Positions 8,655-23,475 of a stretch of DNA of 32,950 nucleotides are shown piece by piece. Numbering within the stretch: position 1 is the first letter of the stretch; each line of letters starts with the position of its first letter. Source of the DNA: Actinomycetota bacterium. Its GTDB lineage: Bacteria; Actinomycetota; Actinomycetes; Nanopelagicales; Nanopelagicaceae. A model generated the notes under the pieces. That model was not told the DNA's origin. It worked only from the letters and a program-made list of their open reading frames with translations, and made no database searches. The stretch lies in the NCBI GenBank assembly GCA_016870365.1, contig VGBW01000013.1, positions 1-32,950 on the forward strand, given 5' to 3'. Made by a program: the position numbers and the translations under genes.

Positions 8655-8672
8655 TCGTTAACATTCGAACGA
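8655..8672. promoter_or_regulatory. 18-bp palindromic operator, copy 1
   Basis: TCGTTAACATTCGAACGA, 28 bases upstream of the permease start and in the shared region with the divergent ADC-family gene. The outer halves TCGTTA and GAACGA match the copies at 13048 and 14403. Likely bound by the MarR-type protein encoded at 13126, an inference from co-location. Confidence 0.65.
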
Positions 8673-11090: not shown

Positions 11091-11798
11091 GTGAAAGCCC
11101 TCTTTGTCGAGCATGACCATGTTTCACCGCCCGGTCCGGTTGCTGAGCGGTTACAACATCATGGTTTTGAGATTGCTGAAGTTGTAGTGGTGAGCGAGGA
11201 AAACTTCAAGAAACCTAACATCACCTTTGTTCCTCCTGATGCAAGTGAATACGACTTGATCGTTCCCCTTGGTGCGCCATGGGGGGCATGGGATGACGGA
11301 TGCATTGGCAAGTGGCTATTGCCAGAGGTGGACTGGATTCGCACCATAGTCGAATCAGGCAAACCGGTCCTTGGTATCTGCTTTGGCGGTCAATTGATGG
11401 CAAGAGCTCTCGGCGGGTCAGTAGCTAGGGCACCTCAATGTGAGATTGGATGGAAGTCAATCTGGAGTGATCAACCTGATTTGGTTCCAGAAGGGCCTTG
11501 GTTCCAATTCCATTACGACCAATGGAAGTTGCCCCCCGGTGCTAGAGAAATTGCACGAAACCCAATTGCCTCTCAAGCATTCGTCATAAGAAACTCCCTG
11601 GCGGTGCAATTCCACCCTGAAGTTAATGCCACTTCGCTAAAGCAATGGCTTGACTGGGGTGGTCGAAGTGAAGTAACTGATGATGGCCAAGATCCAGAGA
11701 TCATGCTTGCGCAAACCATTGCCTACGAACCAGCAGCGCGAGAACGCACGTTCAAACTAGTCGATTCATTCTTGAAGCAAGTCGCAGGCCTAATCTAG
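11091..11798 (+). CDS. Class I amidotransferase-fold hydrolase, probable gamma-glutamyl-amide hydrolase
   Basis: 235 residues of the class I glutamine amidotransferase fold. Catalytic triad visible: nucleophile Cys97 in GICFGGQ, His175 and Glu177 in QFHPE. No synthetase domain is attached. The start is GTG 11091, five bases after a perfect AAGGAGG; an upstream in-frame ATG lacks a site. It is divergent from the GS-like ligase and probably cleaves a gamma-glutamyl intermediate to release glutamate, or, like AtdA2/TdnT of aniline degraders, limits build-up of the gamma-glutamyl compound. The stop overlaps the convergent P450 stop by four bases. Confidence 0.8.
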   Translation: MKALFVEHDHVSPPGPVAERLQHHGFEIAEVVVVSEENFKKPNITFVPPDASEYDLIVPLGAPWGAWDDGCIGKWLLPEVDWIRTIVESGKPVLGICFGGQLMARALGGSVARAPQCEIGWKSIWSDQPDLVPEGPWFQFHYDQWKLPPGAREIARNPIASQAFVIRNSLAVQFHPEVNATSLKQWLDWGGRSEVTDDGQDPEIMLAQTIAYEPAARERTFKLVDSFLKQVAGLI

Positions 11799-13036
11799 CG
11801 AAGATGAACTTTCACCGGCATTCTCTTAATGCCGTGGACGAAATTGGATCTCAAGTAATCGACTTTGCCTACGATGTCCATCGAATCAATCCTAGAAATC
11901 AGGTCCTCGAACATCACTCTGAGTTCAATTCGAGCCAAGGCATTGCCGAGGCACATATGAGGACCACTCCGACCAAAAGTCATATGTTCATTTGGAGTGC
12001 GCGTGACGTCGAAGCTATCAGGATTATCAAAAAACGCCCCGTCGCGGTTTCCTGAAGCGAACCATGTGACAATCTTCTCTCCTTTTTTCACCGTATCGCC
12101 ATGAAGTTCGACATCCTTCGTTGCAGTCCGCCTGAAGTGGTAGACCGGACTGGCGAATCTCAAGAATTCTTCCACTGCCCAGGGAATTAGATCAGGGTCT
12201 TCCTGCAGTCGTGCAAGTTGGTTTGGATGCTCAATTAGATTAATCATCGTATGGGTGATGGTATGCCGGGTCGTCTCATTACCTGCAACTACCAACAAGA
12301 GGAAGTTGGTATGAAAGTCGCGCTCGGTCAAAGGAACTCCATCGCTCATCTCCCCGTTTACCAAGACGGAGATCAAATCCGAACCATTCTTTCCCCGCCG
12401 CTCCTTGGCAAGGGCATCCCCGTAAGCGAACACCTCAAGGGCCGCTGGTGAACGGAAAGGAACCAATCGATACTTCTCGCTATCTGGATCGCTAAGCAAG
12501 ATATCTGCATGCTCTGGATCGTCAAAACCAATCATGCGATTTCCCCACTCGATAAGCTGACGATTGTCCTCAGCTGGAACATCAAGTAGCTGTGCCAAAA
12601 CATTTATCGGAAAGTCTGCGGCTACATCCTTAACAAAGTCGAACTCGCCTTTTGCAAAAGCGTTATCTAGCGTTGTCGCGGTGAGTCCGCGAAGGAATGT
12701 CTCGTAGCGAGCGACCGCAGCTGGGGTGAATTGACCCTGCAACAGGCGACGAAGTGCTCGGTGTCGAGCGCCATCAGTCTCAAGGAGTGAGCGTCGAGCT
12801 TCTTCTTGTTCAGCATCAACCTCCTCGAGGTTGGTGAAACGCTCACTTGTGAAAGTTGCTGGGTCACGCAGTATCGAGACGATGTCGTGATAGCGAGTGA
12901 CAGACCAGAACCCATGATTTGGGGCGACTTCTTCACTCCAATGGAGAGGTTCTACCTCTCTCAATCTCTTGAAAACCGACCAGGGAGCGCCGGGCTCAAA
13001 GAGATTGACATCGGCAAGATTTATCGAAGAACCCAT
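11795..13036 (-). CDS. Cytochrome P450 monooxygenase (bacterial class I)
   Basis: 413 residues, soluble bacterial type. Landmarks: C-helix segment with ARHRALRRLL, I-helix AGNETTRH (acid-threonine oxygen-activation pair), K-helix EFLR (ExxR), a PVYHFRRTA strand, and heme loop FGRSGPHMCLGNALAR with ligand Cys362. It needs electrons from a ferredoxin and a reductase, which are encoded at 17768 and 17996. I choose ATG 13036, five bases after GGAG; GTG 13042 and ATG 13039 are close alternatives. In mycobacterial morpholine/piperidine degraders a P450, a ferredoxin, a reductase and a GS-like gene also sit together, so N-dealkylation or hydroxylation of an amine or its gamma-glutamyl derivative is plausible. 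Confidence 0.9.
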   Translation of the reverse strand: MGSSINLADVNLFEPGAPWSVFKRLREVEPLHWSEEVAPNHGFWSVTRYHDIVSILRDPATFTSERFTNLEEVDAEQEEARRSLLETDGARHRALRRLLQGQFTPAAVARYETFLRGLTATTLDNAFAKGEFDFVKDVAADFPINVLAQLLDVPAEDNRQLIEWGNRMIGFDDPEHADILLSDPDSEKYRLVPFRSPAALEVFAYGDALAKERRGKNGSDLISVLVNGEMSDGVPLTERDFHTNFLLLVVAGNETTRHTITHTMINLIEHPNQLARLQEDPDLIPWAVEEFLRFASPVYHFRRTATKDVELHGDTVKKGEKIVTWFASGNRDGAFFDNPDSFDVTRTPNEHMTFGRSGPHMCLGNALARIELRVMFEDLISRIDSMDIVGKVDYLRSNFVHGIKRMPVKVHLR

Positions 13037-13047
13037 CATCACTCCAC

Positions 13048-13065
13048 TCGTTAGGATACGAACGA
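13048..13065. promoter_or_regulatory. 18-bp palindromic operator, copy 3
   Basis: TCGTTAGGATACGAACGA, 11 bases upstream of the P450 start in the P450/MarR divergent region. It lies just after a possible minus-strand -10 box (TATTCT preceded by TG), so a bound repressor would cover the P450 transcription start. The MarR gene would be autoregulated from the same site or nearby. Confidence 0.68.
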
Positions 13066-13125: not shown

Positions 13126-13653
13126 ATGGCCGGCTCTCATACACTCGCTGAGACCGAGCGCCAAGTTTCTTCCTTGCTTCGTGGCATGAATATTGACTTC
13201 AAGGCTATGACGGTGGTGTCCAATCTATTCCGTGCAGCAAACGCTGCAAGGAATCACCTCGAGCGAGAAGTCCTTAGCGGCAACCGCCTCTCTTGGACTG
13301 GCTTTGTAGTGCTCTGGGTGGTCTGGGTTTGGGGAGAGTGCGAAACACGCGAAATCGCCGAAGAGGTTGGGACTTCAAAGGCAACTCTGACCGGAGTCTT
13401 GAAGACCTTGGAACGGGATAAGTTGGTGGCAAAGCGACGATCCAAGAGCGATGGTCGCCTTGTCTTGGTTACATTAACGGGCGATGGAAAGCGATTGATG
13501 ACGCGAATCTTTCCTGAATTCAACAAACAAGAGGTCTACCTGGTCTCCTCACTTGAAGGGAGTGAACGCAAGGGCACTGCAGATGCCCTTCGCAAGATCA
13601 CGCTACACGCGCGAGGCGACCTTGCTCAGAAGGGAAAGAAAAGGAAGCGCTAG
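13126..13653 (+). CDS. MarR-family transcriptional regulator
   Basis: 175 residues. An N-terminal dimerisation helix region (ETERQVSSLLRGMN onward) is followed by a winged helix-turn-helix: TREIAEEVGTSKATLTGVLKTLER as helices and recognition helix, then KRRSKSDGRLVLVTLTGDGKRL as the wing with the conserved D-R pair. MarR proteins usually repress catabolic genes until a phenolic or other ligand binds. It sits centrally among four divergent promoter regions that carry the same 18-bp palindrome, one of them directly upstream of its own promoter, so it is the best candidate for the cluster's regulator. Its stop overlaps the convergent PuuD-like gene by four bases. Confidence 0.88.
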   Translation: MAGSHTLAETERQVSSLLRGMNIDFKAMTVVSNLFRAANAARNHLEREVLSGNRLSWTGFVVLWVVWVWGECETREIAEEVGTSKATLTGVLKTLERDKLVAKRRSKSDGRLVLVTLTGDGKRLMTRIFPEFNKQEVYLVSSLEGSERKGTADALRKITLHARGDLAQKGKKRKR

Positions 13654-14342
13654 TTTCTCGCTGCTTTGATGAAGGACTTTACTATCTCAAGCTGGTCAGC
13701 TATCTCCAGATAATTATCCTCAGGGTGCCACTGTAGGCCAAACGCCCAAGTGCGAGATGGGTATCTAACCGCCTCGACGTGCCCCTCTTGGGCAAAACCA
13801 AGCGGAGTTATCTCCCTTCCTAGTCGATCTATTGACTGATGATGGAAACAGGAAACTGAAATCATGGAACTTGAGTTACCAAGGGTCGGGTCGACTATCT
13901 TGAACTCCACGTTTGAACGATGGTTTATATGCGGTATCTGCATATGTTGAATCAAGGAGCCACCCAGAGCGACATTTGCCAACTGCGTTCCCCGGCAGAT
14001 GGTCAAGAGTGGAATCGAGGATTCCAGCGAGAATCGCACCAATTCCATATCGGTCTGATCCTGAACCGGGTCGATTCCGTAAAGCTCGCTTCTTTGGGGT
14101 GCTTCTCCATAAAGCCTGGGATCAACATCGCCCCCGCCTGGAAGCAAGACACCACCAATTCCCTCGAGTCGCTCGGACCAAGGCACGCCCACCACCGGTA
14201 GGAATGTGAGCGGTTCGCCTCCCGCAGCCCAGACTAATTCAGCGAGTTTTCGCGCTGTGACAATCCCTGAGTAACGGGTGGCGGAAGTAGAGTCTGCGAA
14301 GCGAGCGGGGATAGCTATCCGAGGCCGTACTGCACTTGCCAC
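13650..14342 (-). CDS. PuuD-like gamma-glutamyl hydrolase (peptidase C26 type)
   Basis: 230 residues. It begins with the C26 pattern RPRIAIPARF, has the LLPGGGDVDPRLYGE loop typical of gamma-glutamyl-GABA hydrolase, nucleophile Cys116 in TICRGTQ, and His206/Glu208 in GLQWHPE. PuuD removes glutamate from gamma-glutamyl-GABA in the putrescine pathway; here the substrate would be the oxidised gamma-glutamyl intermediate of the cluster. Start GTG 14342 has GGGAG six bases upstream; a longer version from ATG 14363 lacks a site. Divergent from the aldehyde dehydrogenase with an operator copy between. It is unrelated in close sequence to the hydrolase at 11091, so the cluster has two such enzymes. 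Confidence 0.85.
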   Translation of the reverse strand: MASAVRPRIAIPARFADSTSATRYSGIVTARKLAELVWAAGGEPLTFLPVVGVPWSERLEGIGGVLLPGGGDVDPRLYGEAPQRSELYGIDPVQDQTDMELVRFSLESSIPLLTICRGTQLANVALGGSLIQHMQIPHINHRSNVEFKIVDPTLGNSSSMISVSCFHHQSIDRLGREITPLGFAQEGHVEAVRYPSRTWAFGLQWHPEDNYLEIADQLEIVKSFIKAARN

Positions 14343-14402
14343 AGGAATCTCCCGTCGGTACATACTTCACAGTGAAGATTGCCTAGAGTAGCCTAAACCA
14401 TC

Positions 14403-14420
14403 TCGTTAGTATCCTAACGA
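14403..14420. promoter_or_regulatory. 18-bp palindromic operator, copy 4 (perfect)
   Basis: TCGTTAGTATCCTAACGA: perfect 7-bp inverted repeat TCGTTAG/CTAACGA around TATC. It lies between the divergent PuuD-like gene and the long rightward operon starting with the aldehyde dehydrogenase, so it could control the Hpa genes, ferredoxin, reductase and decarboxylase. Confidence 0.72.
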
Positions 14421-14468
14421 TTAGATCGCCTCCCAAATGGAGTGCTCGGCGAGGGCAGAGGATATGAA

Positions 14469-15932
14469 GTGAATAGCATTTCGGTCGCGGGCGTGGAAAT
14501 ACCAACCGGCCATCTCATCAATGGCCATCGTATCGATTCAGTTCGGACGCTTCGCAACACATCTCCGATAGACGGACAGTTCTTAGGTGATTTCTCTTCG
14601 GGAGGCGCTGGGGAAATTGACCTCGCTGTCAATGCCGCGCGCGTGGCCTTTCCCGCTTGGCGAGATCTTGGCCCAAGCGGTCGCGGCGAGATTTTGGAGA
14701 AGCTTGCGACGTTGATCGAGGAGAACGTTGAGACTCTCGCACAGATCGAGACTCTTGACAATGGCGCTCTTCTTCGTTCACATCGCAAAGGTGTAATGCC
14801 TCGCGCTGCGGCAAACATCAGATTCTTTGCCGAGTGGGCGAAAGAGCAGTTGAAGCACGAACCATTTGAAACTCGCGGCCACATCAATAATGTTTCGTGG
14901 GATCCATCTGGCGTGGCAGCGCTAATCACCCCGTGGAATGCGCCGCTGATGCTTGCAACTTGGAAGATCGGACCAGCCCTCGCTGCTGGTGACACGGTGA
15001 TCTTGAAACCAGCAGAGTGGACACCATTATCGGCAAGTTTCTTCGCCGACTTGACCATGAAGGCTGGCATGCCTCCCGGCGTCTTCAACGTGGTATTCGG
15101 TCCAGGCGAAGAAGCGGGCGCCGCCCTAACCAAGCATCCAGGAATCTCAAGAATCTCCTTTACGGGTTCTGTGCCCACCGCCAAGATTATTGCAAAGGCA
15201 GCAGCTGAGAACCTGACTCCAATTACTCTTGAGCTTGGTGGAAAGAGTCCGTTAATCGTTCTTGAGGATGCTGACCTCGAGCTCGCCGCCACCTTAGCGA
15301 TAGAACAATACGACAACGCCGGTCAAGTATGTCTCTCCGGAACTCGACTCTTGGTGCATGAGAAGGTAGTTGATGACTTCACCAGACTCTTTGTCGATAA
15401 GGCATCGAGAATCAATCAAGGCGATCCAAGGCATGAGGAGACTCAGGTGGGGCCACAGATACATCCAGACCACCTAGCCAGAATTGAAGGTTTCGTTGAG
15501 CGAGCGAGAAAAGAAGGTGCAGATATAGTTCTTGGAGGTAAACCTAATGAACAACTCGGCGGTCTTTTCTATCAACCAACTCTAGTAATGAAGCCGAACC
15601 CAGAGAGTGAGATCTTCCGCGAGGAGGTCTTCGGCCCGGTTCTCTGCCTCCAAACCTTCGCTAATGATGAGCAAGCACTCGCTATGGCGAACGACACCGA
15701 ATTCGGTCTTGCTGCTGTAGTGGTCTCGGGAAGGCGCGAACACGCGGCGAAGATAACTAAGAACCTAGTCGCTGGGACCATCTGGGTGAATTGCTTTTTC
15801 GTCCGCGACCTTAGAGCACCTTTTGGTGGATCAAAGAAGTCTGGTATCGGTCGCGATGGTGGCACTTGGTCATTTGACTTCTATGCTGATGTAAAGAACA
15901 CAGTGGTTGCACCTCATGGGTGGAAGGAGTAA
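14469..15932 (+). CDS. hpaE: Aldehyde dehydrogenase, 5-carboxymethyl-2-hydroxymuconate semialdehyde dehydrogenase type
   Basis: 487 residues with full ALDH signatures: TPWNAPLM, VILKPAEWTPL, FTGSVPTA, ELGGKS (Glu255), GQVCLSG (Cys288), EEVFGPV. The C-terminal block VNCFFVRDLRAPFGGSKKSG followed by GRDGGTWSFDFYADVKN is characteristic of HpaE, which oxidises the ring-cleavage product of homoprotocatechuate; related HMS and betaine-aldehyde dehydrogenases differ there. The extradiol dioxygenase directly downstream supports this. Start GTG 14469 follows AGAGGA by six bases; an upstream in-frame GTG at 14442 is less likely. It is the first gene of an operon reaching 20840. Confidence 0.85.
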   Translation: MNSISVAGVEIPTGHLINGHRIDSVRTLRNTSPIDGQFLGDFSSGGAGEIDLAVNAARVAFPAWRDLGPSGRGEILEKLATLIEENVETLAQIETLDNGALLRSHRKGVMPRAAANIRFFAEWAKEQLKHEPFETRGHINNVSWDPSGVAALITPWNAPLMLATWKIGPALAAGDTVILKPAEWTPLSASFFADLTMKAGMPPGVFNVVFGPGEEAGAALTKHPGISRISFTGSVPTAKIIAKAAAENLTPITLELGGKSPLIVLEDADLELAATLAIEQYDNAGQVCLSGTRLLVHEKVVDDFTRLFVDKASRINQGDPRHEETQVGPQIHPDHLARIEGFVERARKEGADIVLGGKPNEQLGGLFYQPTLVMKPNPESEIFREEVFGPVLCLQTFANDEQALAMANDTEFGLAAVVVSGRREHAAKITKNLVAGTIWVNCFFVRDLRAPFGGSKKSGIGRDGGTWSFDFYADVKNTVVAPHGWKE

Positions 15933-15937
15933 CAAAA

Positions 15938-16849
15938 GTGGGAAAAGTAGTTGGAGCAGCTCTCTTGGCACATGTGCCAACGATCATGCTGCCTGAGACG
16001 GTCAGGAAAGATCTCAACGAGGGAAAAGAGATCTCGTTGGTGCCTGGCCTTAAGAGACTTCGAAAAGATGTGTTTGAGACCCTCGACTATGACACAGTCG
16101 TCGTGCTCGATAGCCATTGGGCTACTACCGTTGAATTCGTCATCACCTCAGCCGCTGAGCGCTCCGGGCTCTTCACTTCAGAGGAATTACCACGAGGCAT
16201 GACGCAGATTCCGTACTCCATAAAGGGTGACCCTGAGCTTGCAAAGTCGCTCTCTAAGTATGACGAGAAGAACGGAACTTGGGTCACCCCGATTGCCGAT
16301 CCCCATCTTCCAATCTTCTATGCCACGGTAAATCTCTGGCACTATCTTGGACGCGGACTTGACGAGAAGAGATGGATCAGCATGTCTGTCTGTCAGACCG
16401 GAACCCCAGAGGACTTCATCCGAGCAGGAAGAGCCTTGGGCGAAGCGATTCGCGACAGCGATAGAAAGGTGTTCCTGATTGCCTCGGGGGCTCTCTCACA
16501 CACGTTCCACAAGTTACGTGACTTGCGAAAACACGAGGCAAGCGACCCCGTCCACATCTTTACGCCCGAGGCGTATCAATACGATCTCAAAGTTCTAGAG
16601 TGGATGAAGCAGGGAAATCATGGCGCAATTCTTCAAGACTTCGGCACGTTTAGAAAATACAAGCCTGAGGCAGGCTTCTTTCATTATCTAGCCATGGCCG
16701 GCGCGCTTGGTGAGGAGCGCAATCAAGGGCGAGGGATTCTCTATAGCGAATATGAAAACTCAGTGGGAACGGGACAAGTTCATGTCTACTTCCCCGAACC
16801 TCCAGGAGGCTTCCCAATGGCTAAGGATTTGGTCCTCACCCGTGACTGA
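15938..16849 (+). CDS. hpaD: Class III extradiol dioxygenase, homoprotocatechuate 2,3-dioxygenase-like
   Basis: 303 residues of the LigB superfamily, which uses non-heme Fe(II) to open a catechol ring next to the hydroxyls. Visible: His12 in the N-terminal HVP motif, His60 in VVLDSHW (metal-ligand candidates), FTSEELPRGM, IASGALSH, and the C-terminal SVGTGQV. These match the E. coli-type HpaD pattern (HVPS, DTHW, TSNELP, ASGSLSH, GTGQVN). It is therefore likely to act on 3,4-dihydroxyphenylacetate or a close catechol. Start GTG 15938 is eight bases after AAGGAG, the site lying across the end of the dehydrogenase gene. The last eight bases overlap the next gene. Confidence 0.85.
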   Translation: MGKVVGAALLAHVPTIMLPETVRKDLNEGKEISLVPGLKRLRKDVFETLDYDTVVVLDSHWATTVEFVITSAAERSGLFTSEELPRGMTQIPYSIKGDPELAKSLSKYDEKNGTWVTPIADPHLPIFYATVNLWHYLGRGLDEKRWISMSVCQTGTPEDFIRAGRALGEAIRDSDRKVFLIASGALSHTFHKLRDLRKHEASDPVHIFTPEAYQYDLKVLEWMKQGNHGAILQDFGTFRKYKPEAGFFHYLAMAGALGEERNQGRGILYSEYENSVGTGQVHVYFPEPPGGFPMAKDLVLTRD

Positions 16850-17711
16850 GTTCAGACGAATCGAAGTCGATGGTGATGCGCTAACCGTTGAACGAGTTGG
16901 CGAAGGCCTTGCTGCAGCAGATGGACGCAAGTTCACTATAAGTGATGTGAAGCATCTTCCTCCAGCCACTCCTACCAAGATCATCGCAGTGCATCTCAAC
17001 TATGAGAGTAGAACCAAGGAATTCCTCACGAAGTTGCCGCTGGCTCCCACTTACTTTCATAAGCCGATTACTGCACTTAATTCTCACGGAGGCGAAGTAG
17101 TCCGACCCAAACGATGTAAATGGCTCAATTACGAAGGTGAGATCGTCATCGTCATAGGCAAGCAGTGCAAGGACATCTCAATTGAGGAGGCTTCAGATTA
17201 CATCGCCGGATATAGCGTCGGAAATGACTTCGGCCTCCATGATTTCCGCGACACAGATGCGGGATCGATGCTTCGAGTCAAGGGCGCGGATTCGCTCGCT
17301 CCCGTCGGACCTGGGTTGATCACCGATTGGGATTTCAGGAACAAGGTGATCCGAACCTTGGTTAATGGCGTTCTAAAGCAAGAAGACAACACCAATAACA
17401 TGGAATGGAATATGCATTACCTCGTGGCAGACATTGCCCGAACCATCACTTTGGTTCCTGGTGACATGATTTTTTCGGGCACGCCAGCGAATTCAAGACC
17501 GGTTGAGATTGGCGATCTAGTGGAGGTGGAAGTCGAAGGTCTTGGTCGGCTGAGCAACAAGATTGTGGAAGGTCACAGGATTCGAAGCGAAGTTGGCGCC
17601 CAACCTACTGAGAGTGAGGAGGTGATCTCAACGGCGCTAGGTGGCGATTGGGAATTTCGGGGAATCCGAACCCCTTCAAAGGACCTCTACCCGTCAACTA
17701 TCAAAGAGTAG
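16842..17711 (+). CDS. hpaG: Fumarylacetoacetate hydrolase-family protein, HpaG-like isomerase/decarboxylase
   Basis: 289 residues of the FAH fold. Core motifs: KIIAVHLNYESR, PTYFHKPITALN, the metal-binding YEGEIVIVIGK (two Glu) with GNDFGLHDFRD (Asp), GPGLITDWDF, and FSGTPANSRPVEIGD near the end. In the homoprotocatechuate pathway the corresponding enzyme decarboxylates and isomerises the dehydrogenase product, and dioxygenase, dehydrogenase and FAH protein adjacent to one another is the standard arrangement. Start GTG 16842 overlaps the dioxygenase stop (GTGACTGA), so translation is coupled. The later enzymes of that pathway (hydratase, aldolase, separate isomerase) are not in the window. 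Confidence 0.8.
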   Translation: MTEFRRIEVDGDALTVERVGEGLAAADGRKFTISDVKHLPPATPTKIIAVHLNYESRTKEFLTKLPLAPTYFHKPITALNSHGGEVVRPKRCKWLNYEGEIVIVIGKQCKDISIEEASDYIAGYSVGNDFGLHDFRDTDAGSMLRVKGADSLAPVGPGLITDWDFRNKVIRTLVNGVLKQEDNTNNMEWNMHYLVADIARTITLVPGDMIFSGTPANSRPVEIGDLVEVEVEGLGRLSNKIVEGHRIRSEVGAQPTESEEVISTALGGDWEFRGIRTPSKDLYPSTIKE

Positions 17712-17767
17712 ATCCGATCTGTAATTGCGAAGAAGTGCTACGCAAAACGAGCGAGTAAGGAGTTGAC

Positions 17768-17959
17768 ATGATAAGAGTTTATGTTGATTTGTCTAAGTGC
17801 CAGCACTACGGTCAGTGCGTCTTTGAAGCACCGAACATCTTTAAGCTCAATGACGAAGATAAGTTGGAATACGCGGCAACGGCAGATGACTCTGAGCTTT
17901 TGAATGTGCGAGAAGCAATTGATGTGTGTCCAATGCAAGCAATCAAGTTGGTGGATTGA
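17768..17959 (+). CDS. [3Fe-4S] ferredoxin, P450 partner
   Basis: 63 residues. Cysteine pattern CQHYGQC followed by VCPMQAI near the end gives three cluster ligands with His at the position where a fourth Cys would be. This is the hallmark of the small [3Fe-4S] ferredoxins that reduce actinobacterial P450s. Start ATG 17768 has a strong AAGGAG five bases upstream. It lies with its reductase about 5 kb from the P450 gene and on the opposite strand, but both units carry the same operator at their promoters. Confidence 0.9.
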   Translation: MIRVYVDLSKCQHYGQCVFEAPNIFKLNDEDKLEYAATADDSELLNVREAIDVCPMQAIKLVD

Positions 17960-17995
17960 TTCGGATTCATCAGCGAGGGCAAGCCGGGGCAGCAA

Positions 17996-19195
17996 TTGAG
18001 TAGCGTGGTGATTGTCGGCGCATCCATGGGTGGGCTGCGTGCAGCCGAATCTCTCCGTAGATCAGGTTTTGATGGCCAAATCAATCTGATTGGAGCTGAG
18101 CCGCACCTTCCATACAACAGACCGCCCTTATCCAAGGACCTGCTTGCAAAGGACAAGACTCTGGCCGACATTGCCTTTCCGATTCATCATGGAGAGTTGC
18201 AAGCAAATTTCGTCCTAGGGAATCGAGTTGAAACACTCAACCTGGAAGAATCGCACGTGGAATTGTCCTCAGGGGCTAAGTATCAATTCGACTATCTCGT
18301 GGCTGCAACGGGCCTGAGATCTCGGCAGATGTCATTTCCTAACAACCTAGGTCGAGGGCGCTACTCGCTTCGAACTTATGACGATGCTCGATCATTGCGT
18401 GATTCGCTCGCACCGGGAAAGCGAGTCGTCATACTCGGAGCGGGTTTCATTGGACTTGAATTGGCGGCGACCCTTAGAACATTGGGTTGTTTGATTGATG
18501 TTGTAGCGGTAGAAGCAATCCCGCTTGCCGCAATTCTTGGGAATGAGTTTGGCGATGAAGTTCGTCGCCGTCATGTAAATGAGGGAGTTCGCTTCCATTT
18601 GGAACGTAGCATCGTGGATTTGATTGGCACCAGAGAGGTTGAGGGGGTCTTGCTCAGTGATGGCACTGAATTGCCATGTGAGATCTTGATTGAAGCCGTA
18701 GGGTCACTGCCGAACATTGAATGGTTGTCCGGAAATGAAATAGAACTGTCTAACGGTGTCCTCACTGATCAGACCTTGAGAGTCATGAGTGAAAGTGGGA
18801 CCTCATACCAACACGTGTTTGCGATTGGAGACATCGCTCGTTTCCCCTACTCCACACGCTCGCTCCCTGCTCGAAGAATTGAGCACTGGAATATTCCGAT
18901 TGAATCTGCCAAGTGGGTTGGACGTCAGATTTCCCATCACGAGAAGCCAGGCTCGGTCCTCGAATTCAAACAAGGGGAGCGCTTCAATCCCCTCCCTTCC
19001 TTTTGGAGCGATCAATTCAGCGTTAGCATCTTGTCCTACGGGGAACCAACACTTGCTGATGAATGCCTGCTCATTGAAGGTGAGCTCGGAAACGAATTCA
19101 TCATGGGTTATAGGCGAGCAGGTGAACTAGTTGGCGTGGCAGGAATCGGAATGCGGCGAGAAGTAAACAAATTGCGAGGGGAGATTAGACTATGA
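17996..19195 (+). CDS. FAD-dependent ferredoxin reductase (NAD(P)H)
   Basis: 399 residues, two-dinucleotide-fold flavoprotein like those feeding P450 and Rieske systems. N-terminal FAD loop VVIVGASMGGLRAAE (Ala in place of the middle Gly), YNRPPLSK, AATGLRSR, a second nucleotide loop VVILGAGFIGLELA for NAD(P)H, and FAIGDIARF for the flavin. A C-terminal domain of about 80 residues follows, with EHWNIPIESAKWVGRQI. It would pass electrons to the ferredoxin encoded 36 bases upstream. The start is TTG 17996 or GTG 18005; neither has a clear ribosome site, so coupling is likely. Its stop overlaps the next start (ATGA). Confidence 0.87.
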   Translation: MSSVVIVGASMGGLRAAESLRRSGFDGQINLIGAEPHLPYNRPPLSKDLLAKDKTLADIAFPIHHGELQANFVLGNRVETLNLEESHVELSSGAKYQFDYLVAATGLRSRQMSFPNNLGRGRYSLRTYDDARSLRDSLAPGKRVVILGAGFIGLELAATLRTLGCLIDVVAVEAIPLAAILGNEFGDEVRRRHVNEGVRFHLERSIVDLIGTREVEGVLLSDGTELPCEILIEAVGSLPNIEWLSGNEIELSNGVLTDQTLRVMSESGTSYQHVFAIGDIARFPYSTRSLPARRIEHWNIPIESAKWVGRQISHHEKPGSVLEFKQGERFNPLPSFWSDQFSVSILSYGEPTLADECLLIEGELGNEFIMGYRRAGELVGVAGIGMRREVNKLRGEIRL

Positions 19196-19449
19196 GCGAT
19201 TTCTTCGACCTTGATATCTCATTTGAAGATGACGGAGAGAAGTTGGATCTTTCCAAGATTCCAGCCAAGGATCTTCTCGCCGCTATCGAGACGCTACCTG
19301 ATTCGCTCAGAGAAGTGGCTATGGGAGTCCTTTATCAGAAAAGAACGTTCTCTGATGTCTCACAGGCTCTCGCTATCCGCCAATCAGAATTGGTTACCAG
19401 GCTTCACCGAGCGCAGCTCGCAATTTCCATGCATCTGATGAGGCGTTGA
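19192..19449 (+). CDS. Small protein resembling sigma factor region 4
   Basis: 85 residues. An acidic N-terminus (FFDLDISFEDDGEKLD) is followed by a segment that reads like sigma-70 region 4: ETLPDSLREVAMGVLYQKRTF, then SDVSQALAIRQSELVTRLHRAQLAI, in the positions of LPERxREV and the helix-turn-helix ending in KSRLHRA. Regions 1-3 are absent, so it is not a complete sigma factor. It is tied to its neighbours by overlaps on both sides (ATGA with the reductase, TGATG with the decarboxylase). It could be a DNA-binding co-regulator or anti-sigma partner; the resemblance is by eye and the function is unknown. Confidence 0.7.
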   Translation: MSDFFDLDISFEDDGEKLDLSKIPAKDLLAAIETLPDSLREVAMGVLYQKRTFSDVSQALAIRQSELVTRLHRAQLAISMHLMRR

Positions 19450-20840
19450 TGGAAAGACTGCGCATTAGTGTCGAGAGACACGCGGTCTTAGGTTTCCTCG
19501 CAAGGGAGATGGAGCGAATCTGGGGCAGTTTCGACCATGCTCGCGAAAAAGAACCTGAATTAACGGCATCACTCAAATCTCTTCTAAGCGAAGGTCTTCC
19601 CGAGGATTCTCAGGAGATTATCGATGTGCTTGGGAAGTCAATTGATGTTCTAGAAGCATCCATCGCACAATCGCGACCAAGGTTTTTGGCCTACATTGGG
19701 TCCAGTGGGCTTGAGGTGGGTGCAATTGGTGACTTCCTGGCCTCTTCTTACGACATCAATCAAGCGATTAACTCTCGAGCATCAACCCTCTTGGAGCAGC
19801 AAACGGCTAGGTGGGTAGGCGAGTTCATTGGATTCGAAAGTTCAATCGGATACTTCACTTCAGGAGGGATGGTTAGCAATCTCACTGCTCTTGCAACAGC
19901 GCTAAATCGAGCATTGCCAAATTCGCGAAAGTCGGGAGTAGATAGGAAAGTTGCTATCTACGCCTCTCACGAATCTCACTACTCGGTTCGAAGAACAATT
20001 GAAATTCTTGGCATTGGAAGTGATGGGATGCGCCTTATCCCTATCGACGATCGCCATCGAATGAATGTGACTCAGCTGAGGCAGCAAATCGATGCGGATC
20101 TAGCAGCAGGGGTAGTTCCAATAGCAATCGTCGCAACGGCTGGAACCACTCTCACTGGCGCCGTTGACCCTATCCAAGACGTTGCAAAAGTGGCCCAAGA
20201 GAAGAAAATTTGGCTACACGTCGATGGCGCATATGGAGTTCCAGCGGCCGGATCTACAAAGTCAGCGCTCTTTTATGGCATAGATGGCGCAGACTCCGTA
20301 ACCGTCGATGCACACAAATGGCTATTCGTTCCTAAATCCTGTTCTTTGGTCTTGATGAAGAACATTGAGGGACTGGTCAAGACTTTTGCGCATCATGAAG
20401 CGTATATGCCTCACCTTGAGGGCGACTACAACCCAGTTGATCTCACCTTGGAGTATTCGCGTCCATTCCGGGCACTTAAACTATGGATTGCACTCAAAGC
20501 TTACGGTGCGAATGAATTCCGCAGGGCTATAGATAAGAACATCCAACTCGCAGAGCTGACCTATGAGATTGCATCAAGCCGAGAAGACTTTAGGACCCTT
20601 CCCCACCCACCAGATCTTTCAATTGTCCCTATTCAATACCGCAGTTCGCGGGAACCTGATGCCAGCACTCTGAACGAAAGAATTTGTCAGAAGATTATTG
20701 AAGATGGGCGCTTCTACATTTCCACCGCGCGAATAGATGGTGAAACCTGGCTCCGTCCGTGCTACACAAATTTTAGGACGACGGAGGATGATGTTCTCGC
20801 TCTTTTCCAAGTGATACAGGAATTAGGCGCAATTCTTTGA
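19449..20840 (+). CDS. PLP-dependent decarboxylase, aromatic-L-amino-acid decarboxylase family
   Basis: 463 residues of group II PLP decarboxylases (DOPA, tyrosine, tryptophan, glutamate decarboxylases). Features: YFTSGGMVSNLTAL for PLP phosphate, SHESHYS, ATAGTTLTGAVDPI, HVDGAYG with the PLP-pyridine Asp, and VDAHKWLFVP with Schiff-base Lys290. A C-terminal small domain of about 120 residues is present. It removes the carboxylate of an amino acid to give an amine and CO2. With ring-cleavage genes upstream, an aromatic amino acid is a reasonable substrate, but residues for specificity cannot be judged. ATG 19449 overlaps the preceding stop by one base. Last gene of the operon. Confidence 0.88.
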   Translation: MERLRISVERHAVLGFLAREMERIWGSFDHAREKEPELTASLKSLLSEGLPEDSQEIIDVLGKSIDVLEASIAQSRPRFLAYIGSSGLEVGAIGDFLASSYDINQAINSRASTLLEQQTARWVGEFIGFESSIGYFTSGGMVSNLTALATALNRALPNSRKSGVDRKVAIYASHESHYSVRRTIEILGIGSDGMRLIPIDDRHRMNVTQLRQQIDADLAAGVVPIAIVATAGTTLTGAVDPIQDVAKVAQEKKIWLHVDGAYGVPAAGSTKSALFYGIDGADSVTVDAHKWLFVPKSCSLVLMKNIEGLVKTFAHHEAYMPHLEGDYNPVDLTLEYSRPFRALKLWIALKAYGANEFRRAIDKNIQLAELTYEIASSREDFRTLPHPPDLSIVPIQYRSSREPDASTLNERICQKIIEDGRFYISTARIDGETWLRPCYTNFRTTEDDVLALFQVIQELGAIL

Positions 20841-20967
20841 ATTAACTCAAGTACTCTTCGCATAGAATTTTCATGAATGCCCGGGCAAATGCCCGATAAA
20901 TGAGGAAAATTTGACTCAATACAATTGCAAGACTCGCACTCTGATAATTAAAGCAGTGATTCCTAAG

Positions 20968-21007
20968 TGCGTTGTGAGGGGTCGGACCTACGACCCGGTT
21001 TATCAAA
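20968..21007 (-). repeat. tRNA-3'-half-like repeat, copy B (left end of AT-rich island)
   Basis: On the plus strand a 32-base unit with GTGAGGGGTCGGACCTACGA as its core and CCGGT at the end; by my count 27 of 32 bases equal the copy at 28084. Read in reverse it resembles a tRNA from the 3' anticodon strand through variable loop and T-loop, but the T-stem cannot pair and no 5' half exists. It is the left boundary of the HDAC/transporter island. Confidence 0.55.
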
Positions 21008-21039
21008 AACAGTTAGTCGGCACCAATGAGGGCGCTTAA

Positions 21040-22155
21040 TCATAAATCATGCGTTGACTTACATTCATCAATCATGGCTTTTTGATGAGCATGAAGCTGT
21101 TGGTCTCGTCGAGTTGAAGCATCGCTCATATCTGCCATGTAATCCGGAATCCCAGAGGATTTTCCTAGGAATGCTTCCAGAACCGCTAACCCACAGAAAG
21201 GTACATAAACTTCTGAGTAACCACCTTCATGAGTTGCCACGATTCTTCCAGAGCAGTGTTTGTCGGCGAGCTTGATGGTTTCTTCTGCCATCCACTTATA
21301 TGTATATGCATGAAGCGCCATCCGTGAGAGTTGATCGTAGTATGAGGCATCAAAACCGGATGCCACGAAGATAAATTCAGGCTTAAAACGATCAACTGCA
21401 GGTTTCACAACATTTTCAAAAGCGTAGCGATATGCGCCGTCACCACTACCTGCTGGAATTGGAATATTTATGTTAAAACCTTTCCCAGCACCTTCTCCAA
21501 TTTCGCTTATTTTTCCTTCATACCGCGGATAGAGCTCATCTTGATGGAGTGAGATGGCAAGGACATCAGGATCGTCATAAAAGACAGATTGTGTTCCGTT
21601 TCCATGGTGGACATCCCAGTCAATTACTGCAAATCTACGTAGTTTTGTAGTTGCCCTTAGATGTTCTATTGCGACGCCAATATTGTTGAACATGCAATAT
21701 CCCATGCCATGATCGCGAACCGCGTGGTGTCCAGGTGGACGGATCAAAGCGTAGGCAAGATCAACTTCACCTTTATAGACCGCGTCAGCAGCTGCAATCG
21801 CGCCACCTGCGGATAAACATGCGATTTCAAATCCGTAAGGTCCAAATACTGATTCCTCATCACCCATAAGCCCGCCACCATTATCTGAGAGCTCTTTCAT
21901 CTTCTTTATATGTTTAGGATTATGAACTCTCTCTAGTTCTGCGACAGTTGCAGGGCGTGGTTCGATAGGAATTACTTCACTCTTAAAAGGAGAAACTTCA
22001 ACCAGACTCTTGAAACGTCTTTTGGAGTCTGGTGATTCCCAATGTTTTCCAGCTTGAACGAACTGGCCGGGTTTGTAAGTTCCCGCATAAGTTCCAGTGT
22101 CATGCCAAAAATAATACTCGTGAGTCAGGAAGCCAACCTTGCGTTCTTTGCTCAC
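21040..22155 (-). CDS. Class II histone-deacetylase-fold amidohydrolase 1
   Basis: 371 residues of the arginase/deacetylase fold; in bacteria these are acetylpolyamine amidohydrolases and related Zn-dependent amide hydrolases. Active-site residues: the His pair 143-144 in RPPGHH, Zn ligands Asp181 and His183 in DWDVHHGNGTQ, Asp269 in SGFDAS, and transition-state Tyr313 in HEGGYS. It would remove an acyl group from an acetylated amine or cleave another amide in the cytoplasm; no signal peptide. The start is GTG 22155, with no ribosome site, so the message may be leaderless. Divergent from a paralogue that heads the transporter operon. Confidence 0.88.
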   Translation of the reverse strand: MSKERKVGFLTHEYYFWHDTGTYAGTYKPGQFVQAGKHWESPDSKRRFKSLVEVSPFKSEVIPIEPRPATVAELERVHNPKHIKKMKELSDNGGGLMGDEESVFGPYGFEIACLSAGGAIAAADAVYKGEVDLAYALIRPPGHHAVRDHGMGYCMFNNIGVAIEHLRATTKLRRFAVIDWDVHHGNGTQSVFYDDPDVLAISLHQDELYPRYEGKISEIGEGAGKGFNINIPIPAGSGDGAYRYAFENVVKPAVDRFKPEFIFVASGFDASYYDQLSRMALHAYTYKWMAEETIKLADKHCSGRIVATHEGGYSEVYVPFCGLAVLEAFLGKSSGIPDYMADMSDASTRRDQQLHAHQKAMIDECKSTHDL

Positions 22156-22338
22156 GAGCGATGAGTCTAGGTATCGAGCCCTGATGAATCAAGGACACCC
22201 TTTTTGATAAATCTGAGCCTGGATAGCCTCTGAACAAGTTGATCGATCTTCGGAAAATTAACTCACCTGGTTATAGAAGTTGGTCTAGGACATGGCTACT
22301 ATTGCTAAGAGGAAAGGCCACCCAGGGGGAGATGAGAA

Positions 22339-23475
22339 ATGTCCGGAACCACTGGCTATGTCTGGGAGGAAATCTATGGCTGGCACAATACGGGAAATTG
22401 GGCTGGTGCCGCCCCTGCGGGCCTAAACGCTCAACCATATGAACACTTTGAAAGTGCGGAATCGAAAACTAGATTGGCGAGTGCCATCGAGGTTTCTGGT
22501 CTACACAAGAGTCTAAGAAGATTGCCTGCGCGAATGGCAGATATTGACGAAATTGCCCTCGTGCATAACTGGGACTACATTGGAAGAATCAAACGGGATA
22601 GCGCTTCGCCCTTTGGCGGTGATGCGGGAGATGGTTTGAGCCCATTTGGAACGGGATCGTTTGAAATTGCACTCTGGGCTGCTGGTGGCGCAATTACCGC
22701 TATGGAGGCAGTAGTTTCAGGATTGGTAAATAATGCCTATGCCTTGATTCGTCCACCAGGTCATCATGCAAGAATCGAAACGGGTATGGGTTTTTGTATC
22801 TTTGCGAATGCATCCATAGCTATTAAGTATGCCCAAAAAAATCTTGGCGTAAGACGTGTAGCAGTTCTAGATTGGGATGTTCACCATGGGAATGGAACTC
22901 AATCAATTTTTTATGAAGATCCAAGCGTTCTCACGATTTCTATCCACCAGTCCGGACTTTTTCCGCCAAACAGTGGAGGAGTAGATGAACAAGGACAAGG
23001 ATTTGGCGAGGGATTATCAATTAATATTCCGTTGCCTGCGGGTAGTGGCAATGGCGCCTATGTAGAAGCTCTAGAAAAAATAGCTTTTCCAGCTATTAAG
23101 AAGTTCAAACCTGAAATTATCGTTGTTTGTTCAGGATTCGACGCAGCCATGACTGATCCGCTTGGTCGGATGATCGTAACTGCCAATGGATATAGAGAAA
23201 TGACCAAGCGCCTTATTGCCGTTGCAAAAGAAGTCTGTAATGGAAGAATAGTTATGACCCATGAAGGAGGTTATTCTCCAACATATGTACCTTTCTGTGG
23301 TTTGGCAGTAATAGAAACTCTTGCGGGAGTCAAAACAAACATGAACGATATCCTCGCTGAATTTTGGGATAATTTGCCCGATCAAAAACTTCACTCTTGG
23401 CAAGATTCAATTATCAGAGATATTTTGAAAGATATTCACTTTCTCACATCTGCGAAACTAGAGGCCTCTTCATGA
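22339..23475 (+). CDS. Class II histone-deacetylase-fold amidohydrolase 2
   Basis: 378 residues, a clear but diverged paralogue of the enzyme at 21040. Conserved catalytic set: His142-143 in RPPGHH, Asp180/His182 in DWDVHHGNGTQ, Asp268 in SGFDAA and Tyr312 in HEGGYS. The N-terminus has GYVWEEIYGWHNTGNW, like the HDAH-type class II bacterial enzymes. ATG 22339 follows GGGGGAG by eight bases. The stop overlaps the first transporter permease start (ATGA), tying hydrolysis to uptake. The two enzymes differ most in the N-terminal 60 residues and the loop near the active-site rim, so they may prefer different acyl or amine groups. Confidence 0.88.
   Translation: MSGTTGYVWEEIYGWHNTGNWAGAAPAGLNAQPYEHFESAESKTRLASAIEVSGLHKSLRRLPARMADIDEIALVHNWDYIGRIKRDSASPFGGDAGDGLSPFGTGSFEIALWAAGGAITAMEAVVSGLVNNAYALIRPPGHHARIETGMGFCIFANASIAIKYAQKNLGVRRVAVLDWDVHHGNGTQSIFYEDPSVLTISIHQSGLFPPNSGGVDEQGQGFGEGLSINIPLPAGSGNGAYVEALEKIAFPAIKKFKPEIIVVCSGFDAAMTDPLGRMIVTANGYREMTKRLIAVAKEVCNGRIVMTHEGGYSPTYVPFCGLAVIETLAGVKTNMNDILAEFWDNLPDQKLHSWQDSIIRDILKDIHFLTSAKLEASS

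Follow-up and report, generated by a model that had tools for sequence, protein, structure and literature searches.

A stand-alone relative of ECF sigma region 4 between a ferredoxin reductase and a decarboxylase in a catabolic operon of Nanopelagicaceae

The window, that is, the whole 32,950-nucleotide stretch analysed here (contig VGBW01000013.1 of assembly GCA_016870365.1, family Nanopelagicaceae), carries what appears to be a P450/ring-cleavage catabolic operon. On the forward strand, genes for an aldehyde dehydrogenase (ALDH, 14442–15932; Pfam), a LigB/HpaD-like extradiol ring-cleavage dioxygenase (15920–16849; Pfam and NCBIfam), an FAA-hydrolase/HpaG-like enzyme (FAH, 16842–17711; Pfam and NCBIfam, with the start taken from the orthologue at locus L008), a single-cluster ferredoxin (17768–17959; Pfam, Fer4_13 and Fer4_15), a ferredoxin reductase (FdR, 17996–19195; Pyr_redox_2 plus Reductase_C by Pfam and NCBIfam), a small protein designated sig4 (19192–19449) and a PLP-dependent decarboxylase (DC, 19449–20840; Pyridoxal_deC by Pfam and NCBIfam) follow one another in this order. 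Just upstream lie a cytochrome P450 gene of the same conserved cluster (11795–13042, reverse strand), a MarR-family regulator, the obvious local regulator of the cluster (13126–13653, forward strand), a glutamine-synthetase-like enzyme and amidotransferases. Its gene content suggests that the cluster handles an aromatic amine or an amino acid of that kind. Elsewhere in the window, two divergent histone-deacetylase-like genes adjoin a branched-chain-amino-acid-type ABC transporter set (21040–23475), in which the binding protein was assigned by match and the remainder by reading of the open reading frames (ORFs). Furthermore, an ORF at 699–1325 on the reverse strand begins like a signal peptide and contains an extended Pro-Thr/Pro-Ala repeat, for which a GC-rich tandem repeat at 1081–1214 codes.

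The sig4 ORF (forward strand, ATG to TGA) encodes 85 amino acids and is annotated as a stand-alone ECF-type sigma region 4 protein on the basis of the ORF, NCBIfam, the orthologues, dN/dS and profile comparison. Its ATG at 19192 overlaps the FdR stop by 4 nt (ATGA), and its TGA at 19447–19449 overlaps the DC ATG at 19449 by 1 nt (TGATG). A TTG at 19446 was rejected as the DC start, the orthologues starting at the ATG (MERLRI, MERMRI). The preliminary description had regarded sig4 as translationally locked between both neighbours; this applies on the DC side in all seven genomes that carry sig4, while the 4-nt overlap with FdR is found in three and is replaced by a spacer of 15–16 nt in the remaining four. 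The link of sig4 to DC is therefore tighter than that to FdR. Taken as a whole, the protein is acidic (pI 5.2), with an N-terminal tail of net charge −6 (residues 1–24, 19192–19263) and a net charge of +3 over residues 25–85. The tail contains MSxFFDLDISF in six of the seven orthologues and has low confidence to about residue 16–18 in both of the structure models described below.

A search with the window protein detected sig4 in 7 of the 296 genomes of its family, its own included, and a profile built from the seven sequences found the same seven again. With the profile, sig4 was also found in 4 of 394 genomes in a class sample, all four from the same family; in a sample of 246 genomes from the phylum it was found in one, namely its own. 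The orthologues in the six further genomes have identities of 64–89%, and the seven genomes represent three genera. Whether orthologues always sit between the same two genes had been proposed as a check, and they do so, between FdR and DC, in 7/7. In full-length pairs, identity to the window is 71–88% for sig4, 55–72% for FdR and 61–78% for DC. The dN/dS of sig4 is 0.035–0.10 in 5 of 15 pairs; nine pairs give no ratio with dS saturated, and the value of 1.9 for the pair G230–G229 (dS 0.017) is uninformative because the two are near-identical. Residues 62–74 (19375–19413) are invariant in all six full-length rows while all 13 codons vary synonymously, the length of this run being borderline by column permutation (p=0.056), and the most constrained part of the protein is the recognition-helix stretch (13 of the 14 columns 62–75). 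The ORF is thus a real gene, and it is under purifying selection. The copy in G207 (L028, 1111–1329, reverse strand), excluded from the dN/dS and invariance counts, has a replaced N-terminus and is shorter, which is either real or an assembly fault. Ten loci related to the window protein were found, of which one is an orthologue (L008, counted once with G310); the other nine sit in longer open frames reading as ECF sigma factors and were rejected. The search with the window protein returned no paralogue from its own genome, only the protein itself, and among the titles listed in literature searches none concerns this protein, which does not mean that it is unpublished.

The idea, already put forward in the preliminary description, that sig4 is a stand-alone relative of sigma region 4 is upheld only by NCBIfam and by profile-profile comparison; Pfam assigned the window protein to no family at E≤1. 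In NCBIfam, ECF sigma models match the window protein at E 5e-4 to 0.1, all far under their own cut-offs, and the alignment covers only the region-4 end of the ECF profiles; TIGR02937 matches all seven orthologues at E≤0.01, below its cut-off. Sigma70_r4_2 (PF08281) matches three of the seven weakly, with a best E of 0.013 that falls short of the Pfam gathering cut-off, and sig4 is absent from the matches of the Pfam sigma-4 model to its own genome at E≤10. When the six full-length orthologues were compared by hhalign with two ECF sigma-4 domains of the same genome, chosen by Pfam alone, the score was 31.9 over 53 columns, as against a mean of 10.0 and a maximum of 15.7 in 200 column shuffles. 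The scores against the sigma-A region 4 of the same genome (10.5) and LuxR domains (9.0) lie within their shuffles and are noise. Against eight ECF sigma-4 domains the score rose to 62.1 (maximum of shuffles, 17.5), a comparison that is partly circular because six of the eight ECF rows came from searches with the query. The profile similarity thus extends above chance over most of the ECF region 4 domain. A sequence search of the PDB gave no match at E≤1 with the orthologue profile, and two matches with the single protein, one at E 1.1 and one, to a sigma factor, at E 1.4. Its sequence profile places sig4 with the ECF-type sigma region 4 domains, as a divergent member. Because region 2 is absent from its 85 residues, sig4 cannot by itself serve as a sigma factor.

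Structure prediction gave an answer that depends on the alignment. In an AlphaFold2 model from a two-row alignment (pLDDT 74), helices are predicted at residues 25–33, 37–50 and 53–84, with the two helices of the helix-turn-helix (HTH) fused, and there was no significant fold match. In an eight-row model including ECF sequences (pLDDT 80), which is partly circular since the ECF rows were mostly found by the query itself, an HTH is present with helices at 53–59 and 64–84 (19348–19443). This model superposes on SigR region 4 (5fgm) with Z 11.1 and an rmsd of 1.3 over 63 aligned residues, and on sigma-E4 bound to DNA (2h27) with Z 9.5; Foldseek gave nothing at E≤0.001 with it. The expected HTH was thus recovered with ECF rows in the alignment and not with two rows only, and because of this dependence the fold is likely but conditional.

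According to PMC6713349, the recognition helix of SigW4 on −35 DNA makes contacts through T168, K170, T171, R172, H174 and R175, with K170 touching the base G'-31 and T168 the backbone; K148 is a further backbone contact. These contacts were placed on sig4 by the SigW numbering and the aligned common LP motif. T171, R172, H174 and R175 correspond to T69, R70, H72 and R73 of sig4, identical and invariant in 7/7, while K170, T168 and K148 are changed to V68, E66 and V/I46. Four of the six recognition-helix contacts on that list are thus identical and two altered: by alignment, the half that would read −35/−34 is preserved in sig4 and the other half is altered.

The operon also occurs in genomes that lack sig4. 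Among 22 loci examined, 15 have both FdR and DC, seven with sig4 and eight without, and the FdR–DC gap measures 239–271 nt in the former and −22 to 12 nt in the latter. FdR and DC are adjacent in all eight sig4-less loci, one of which (G096) is from the same family, and the seven sig4 genomes form one group at 100/100 in both trees, which fits one gain of sig4. The pattern is that of an ECF region 4 captured once by a catabolic operon; this ECF-derived single origin is supported by the homology, the one group in two trees and the selection. Identity within the sig4 group is lower than in the sig4-less group for FdR (0.56 vs 0.69) and DC (0.63 vs 0.71), and the corresponding divergence ratios are 1.56 for FdR, 1.36 for DC and 1.52 for FAH. 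P450 (0.49) and LigB (0.50), opposite to FdR and DC, diverged more slowly in the sig4 group. The faster divergence of FdR and DC is a hint of co-adaptation, and no more.

An 18-bp palindrome, TCGTTAGKATMCKAACGA, is found where promoters of the P450 cluster diverge, between P450 and MarR (13048–13065) and between the amidotransferase and ALDH (14403–14420), with a weaker copy at 8655–8672; over both strands there are 5 matches vs 0.04 expected. Similar palindromes were seen by eye at equivalent positions in genomes lacking sig4, and for this reason the palindrome is most likely a MarR operator. By eye, no sig4-specific DNA motif was found in the intergenic regions of the cluster, where the MarR-type palindrome stands out instead, and a sigma-70 scan of 14200–21100 gave 2 sites vs 5.6 in shuffles, i.e., fewer. 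In three of the seven sig4 genomes, G230, G229 and G207 (loci L025, L027 and L028), which are 97–99% complete, no MarR match was found at E≤1e-5. The cluster of these genomes has neither MarR nor the amidotransferase beside it; P450 and ALDH diverge directly from each other there, and the operator appears degenerate. They are close relatives, and MarR was probably lost once. Since sig4 is kept there, it is a candidate regulator in these genomes, but no more than a candidate.

Several known systems resemble sig4 in part. ECF (group IV) region 4 (PF08281; SigR, SigW) is like it in sequence profile, in the four-helix HTH fold predicted with the ECF rows and in the majority of the SigW contacts above, whereas sig4 has the helix-7 lysine and two of the contacts in the recognition helix changed, lacks region 2, is a separate gene in a catabolic operon and, in the case of the window protein, lies below Pfam detection. 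UPF0122/YlxM proteins (1xsv, 1s7o) are also small and stand-alone with a sigma-4-like fold, and their genes adjoin ffh. The structural match to them has Z 9.5, but identity is only 6–7%, no Pfam family matches the window protein at E≤1, and the neighbours of sig4 are FdR and DC in 7/7, not ffh. A similar HTH is found in KorA of plasmid RP4/RK2, there an operator-binding repressor (Foldseek 5clv, E 0.037). KorA has an additional dimer domain; none is visible in sig4. PhyR (3t0y, Z 7.9, VIA) is an example of a sigma-like fold serving outside sigma function (PMC8103513); unlike sig4, it is a response regulator that retains an ECF-like structure in full. The genome that holds sig4 encodes another stand-alone sigma region 4 protein (L064, 1468–1701, reverse strand; G000:C6, near 53988–54140), in a 78-codon frame that matches PF08281 at 39.6 bits, above the cut-off, and is flanked by what we take to be SRPBCC-like and DUF3117-like ORFs. 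It was rejected as a sig4 paralogue: the hhalign score is 22.8 with a probability of 27% for a single sequence, so that the two are at best distantly related.

What sig4 does is best approached from its homology. The preliminary description had offered a co-regulator of the pathway or a domain reused for another purpose. Tentatively, and at somewhat less than even odds, we favor a regulator: an accessory protein that binds DNA and is produced together with DC. An ECF region 4 with an acidic tail would have become a separate gene once, between FdR and DC, and its product would be made in step with DC through the observed stop-start overlap, if the overlap does couple translation. With T69, R70, H72 and R73, the DNA-binding protein would then read the upstream half of a −35-like element and help to regulate transcription of its own cluster as an accessory factor. 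It would tie transcription of the operon to its translation, beside MarR or replacing it. The ECF homology, the preserved contacts, the frozen residues 62–74, the charge of +3, the HTH model and the loss of MarR support this reading; MarR and the palindromes existing without sig4, the changes at K170, T168 and K148, the acidity of the protein, the two-row model, the failure of the Pfam sigma-4 model to match sig4 and the lack of a sig4-specific site among the intergenic regions viewed speak against it, and the three MarR-less genomes probably count as a single loss. The faster divergence of FdR and DC in sig4 genomes fits an enzyme partner rather than a regulator. The main rival, although unlikely, is a sigma-4 fold reused as a protein-protein adaptor that binds FdR and/or DC, assembles or tunes them and is made in a fixed ratio with both. 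The fixed position between the two genes and the 1-nt overlap with DC, both in 7/7, and the lower FdR and DC identity with P450 and LigB reversed would suit such an adaptor, and the conserved acidic tail could serve as a docking motif. On the other hand, the eight sig4-less genomes evidently manage without it, the recognition-helix stretch is the part most constrained, and FAH, which is not adjacent to sig4, is accelerated as much as FdR.

Another reading sets sig4 at the level of RNA polymerase. Both the beta flap and anti-sigma factors are contact partners of ECF region 4. A decoy competing with primary or ECF region 4 for either of these, which would damp or release a sigma regulon upon expression of the operon, is distinctly improbable: it draws on the homology and on the sigma mimicry known from PhyR (PMC8103513), but such a global effect is hard to reconcile with confinement to one operon in 7/7 genomes, and inspection of the window ORFs by eye revealed no anti-sigma gene. 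Split sigma factors do exist, as in SigO-RsoA of Bacillus subtilis, where regions 2 and 4 are on separate proteins (PMC8103513; a table in PMC10141391 gives the domains in reverse order), and sig4 might be one half of such a pair, its sigma-2 partner being encoded at another site of the genome. This is very improbable because no such partner was found in its own genome, where the three PF04542 matches at E≤1 all lie in frames of 222–471 aa with a region 4 of their own; a partner that has diverged beyond the reach of PF04542 would have escaped this search. Finally, the small size, the lack of a curated domain over cut-off and the replaced N-terminus in G207 could suggest a non-functional ECF leftover or a mere translational spacer; low dN/dS where measurable, a helix invariant despite free codon drift and retention in three genera make this hardly credible.

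Returning to the accessory regulator, a bolder possibility, and a rather doubtful one, is that the sigma-4 domain has been domesticated for feedback regulation from inside the operon, reads the translation of that operon and has replaced MarR in one lineage. A sigma fragment would then have given rise to a transcription factor specific to one pathway. Because the operon exists with sig4 and without it, and likewise with and without MarR, it offers natural before-and-after pairs. No new principle is at stake; the case of sig4 is small, well bounded and open to testing, and it would show how, in genomes of 1–2 Mb, a sigma fragment comes to act as a local regulator or as a partner of enzymes.
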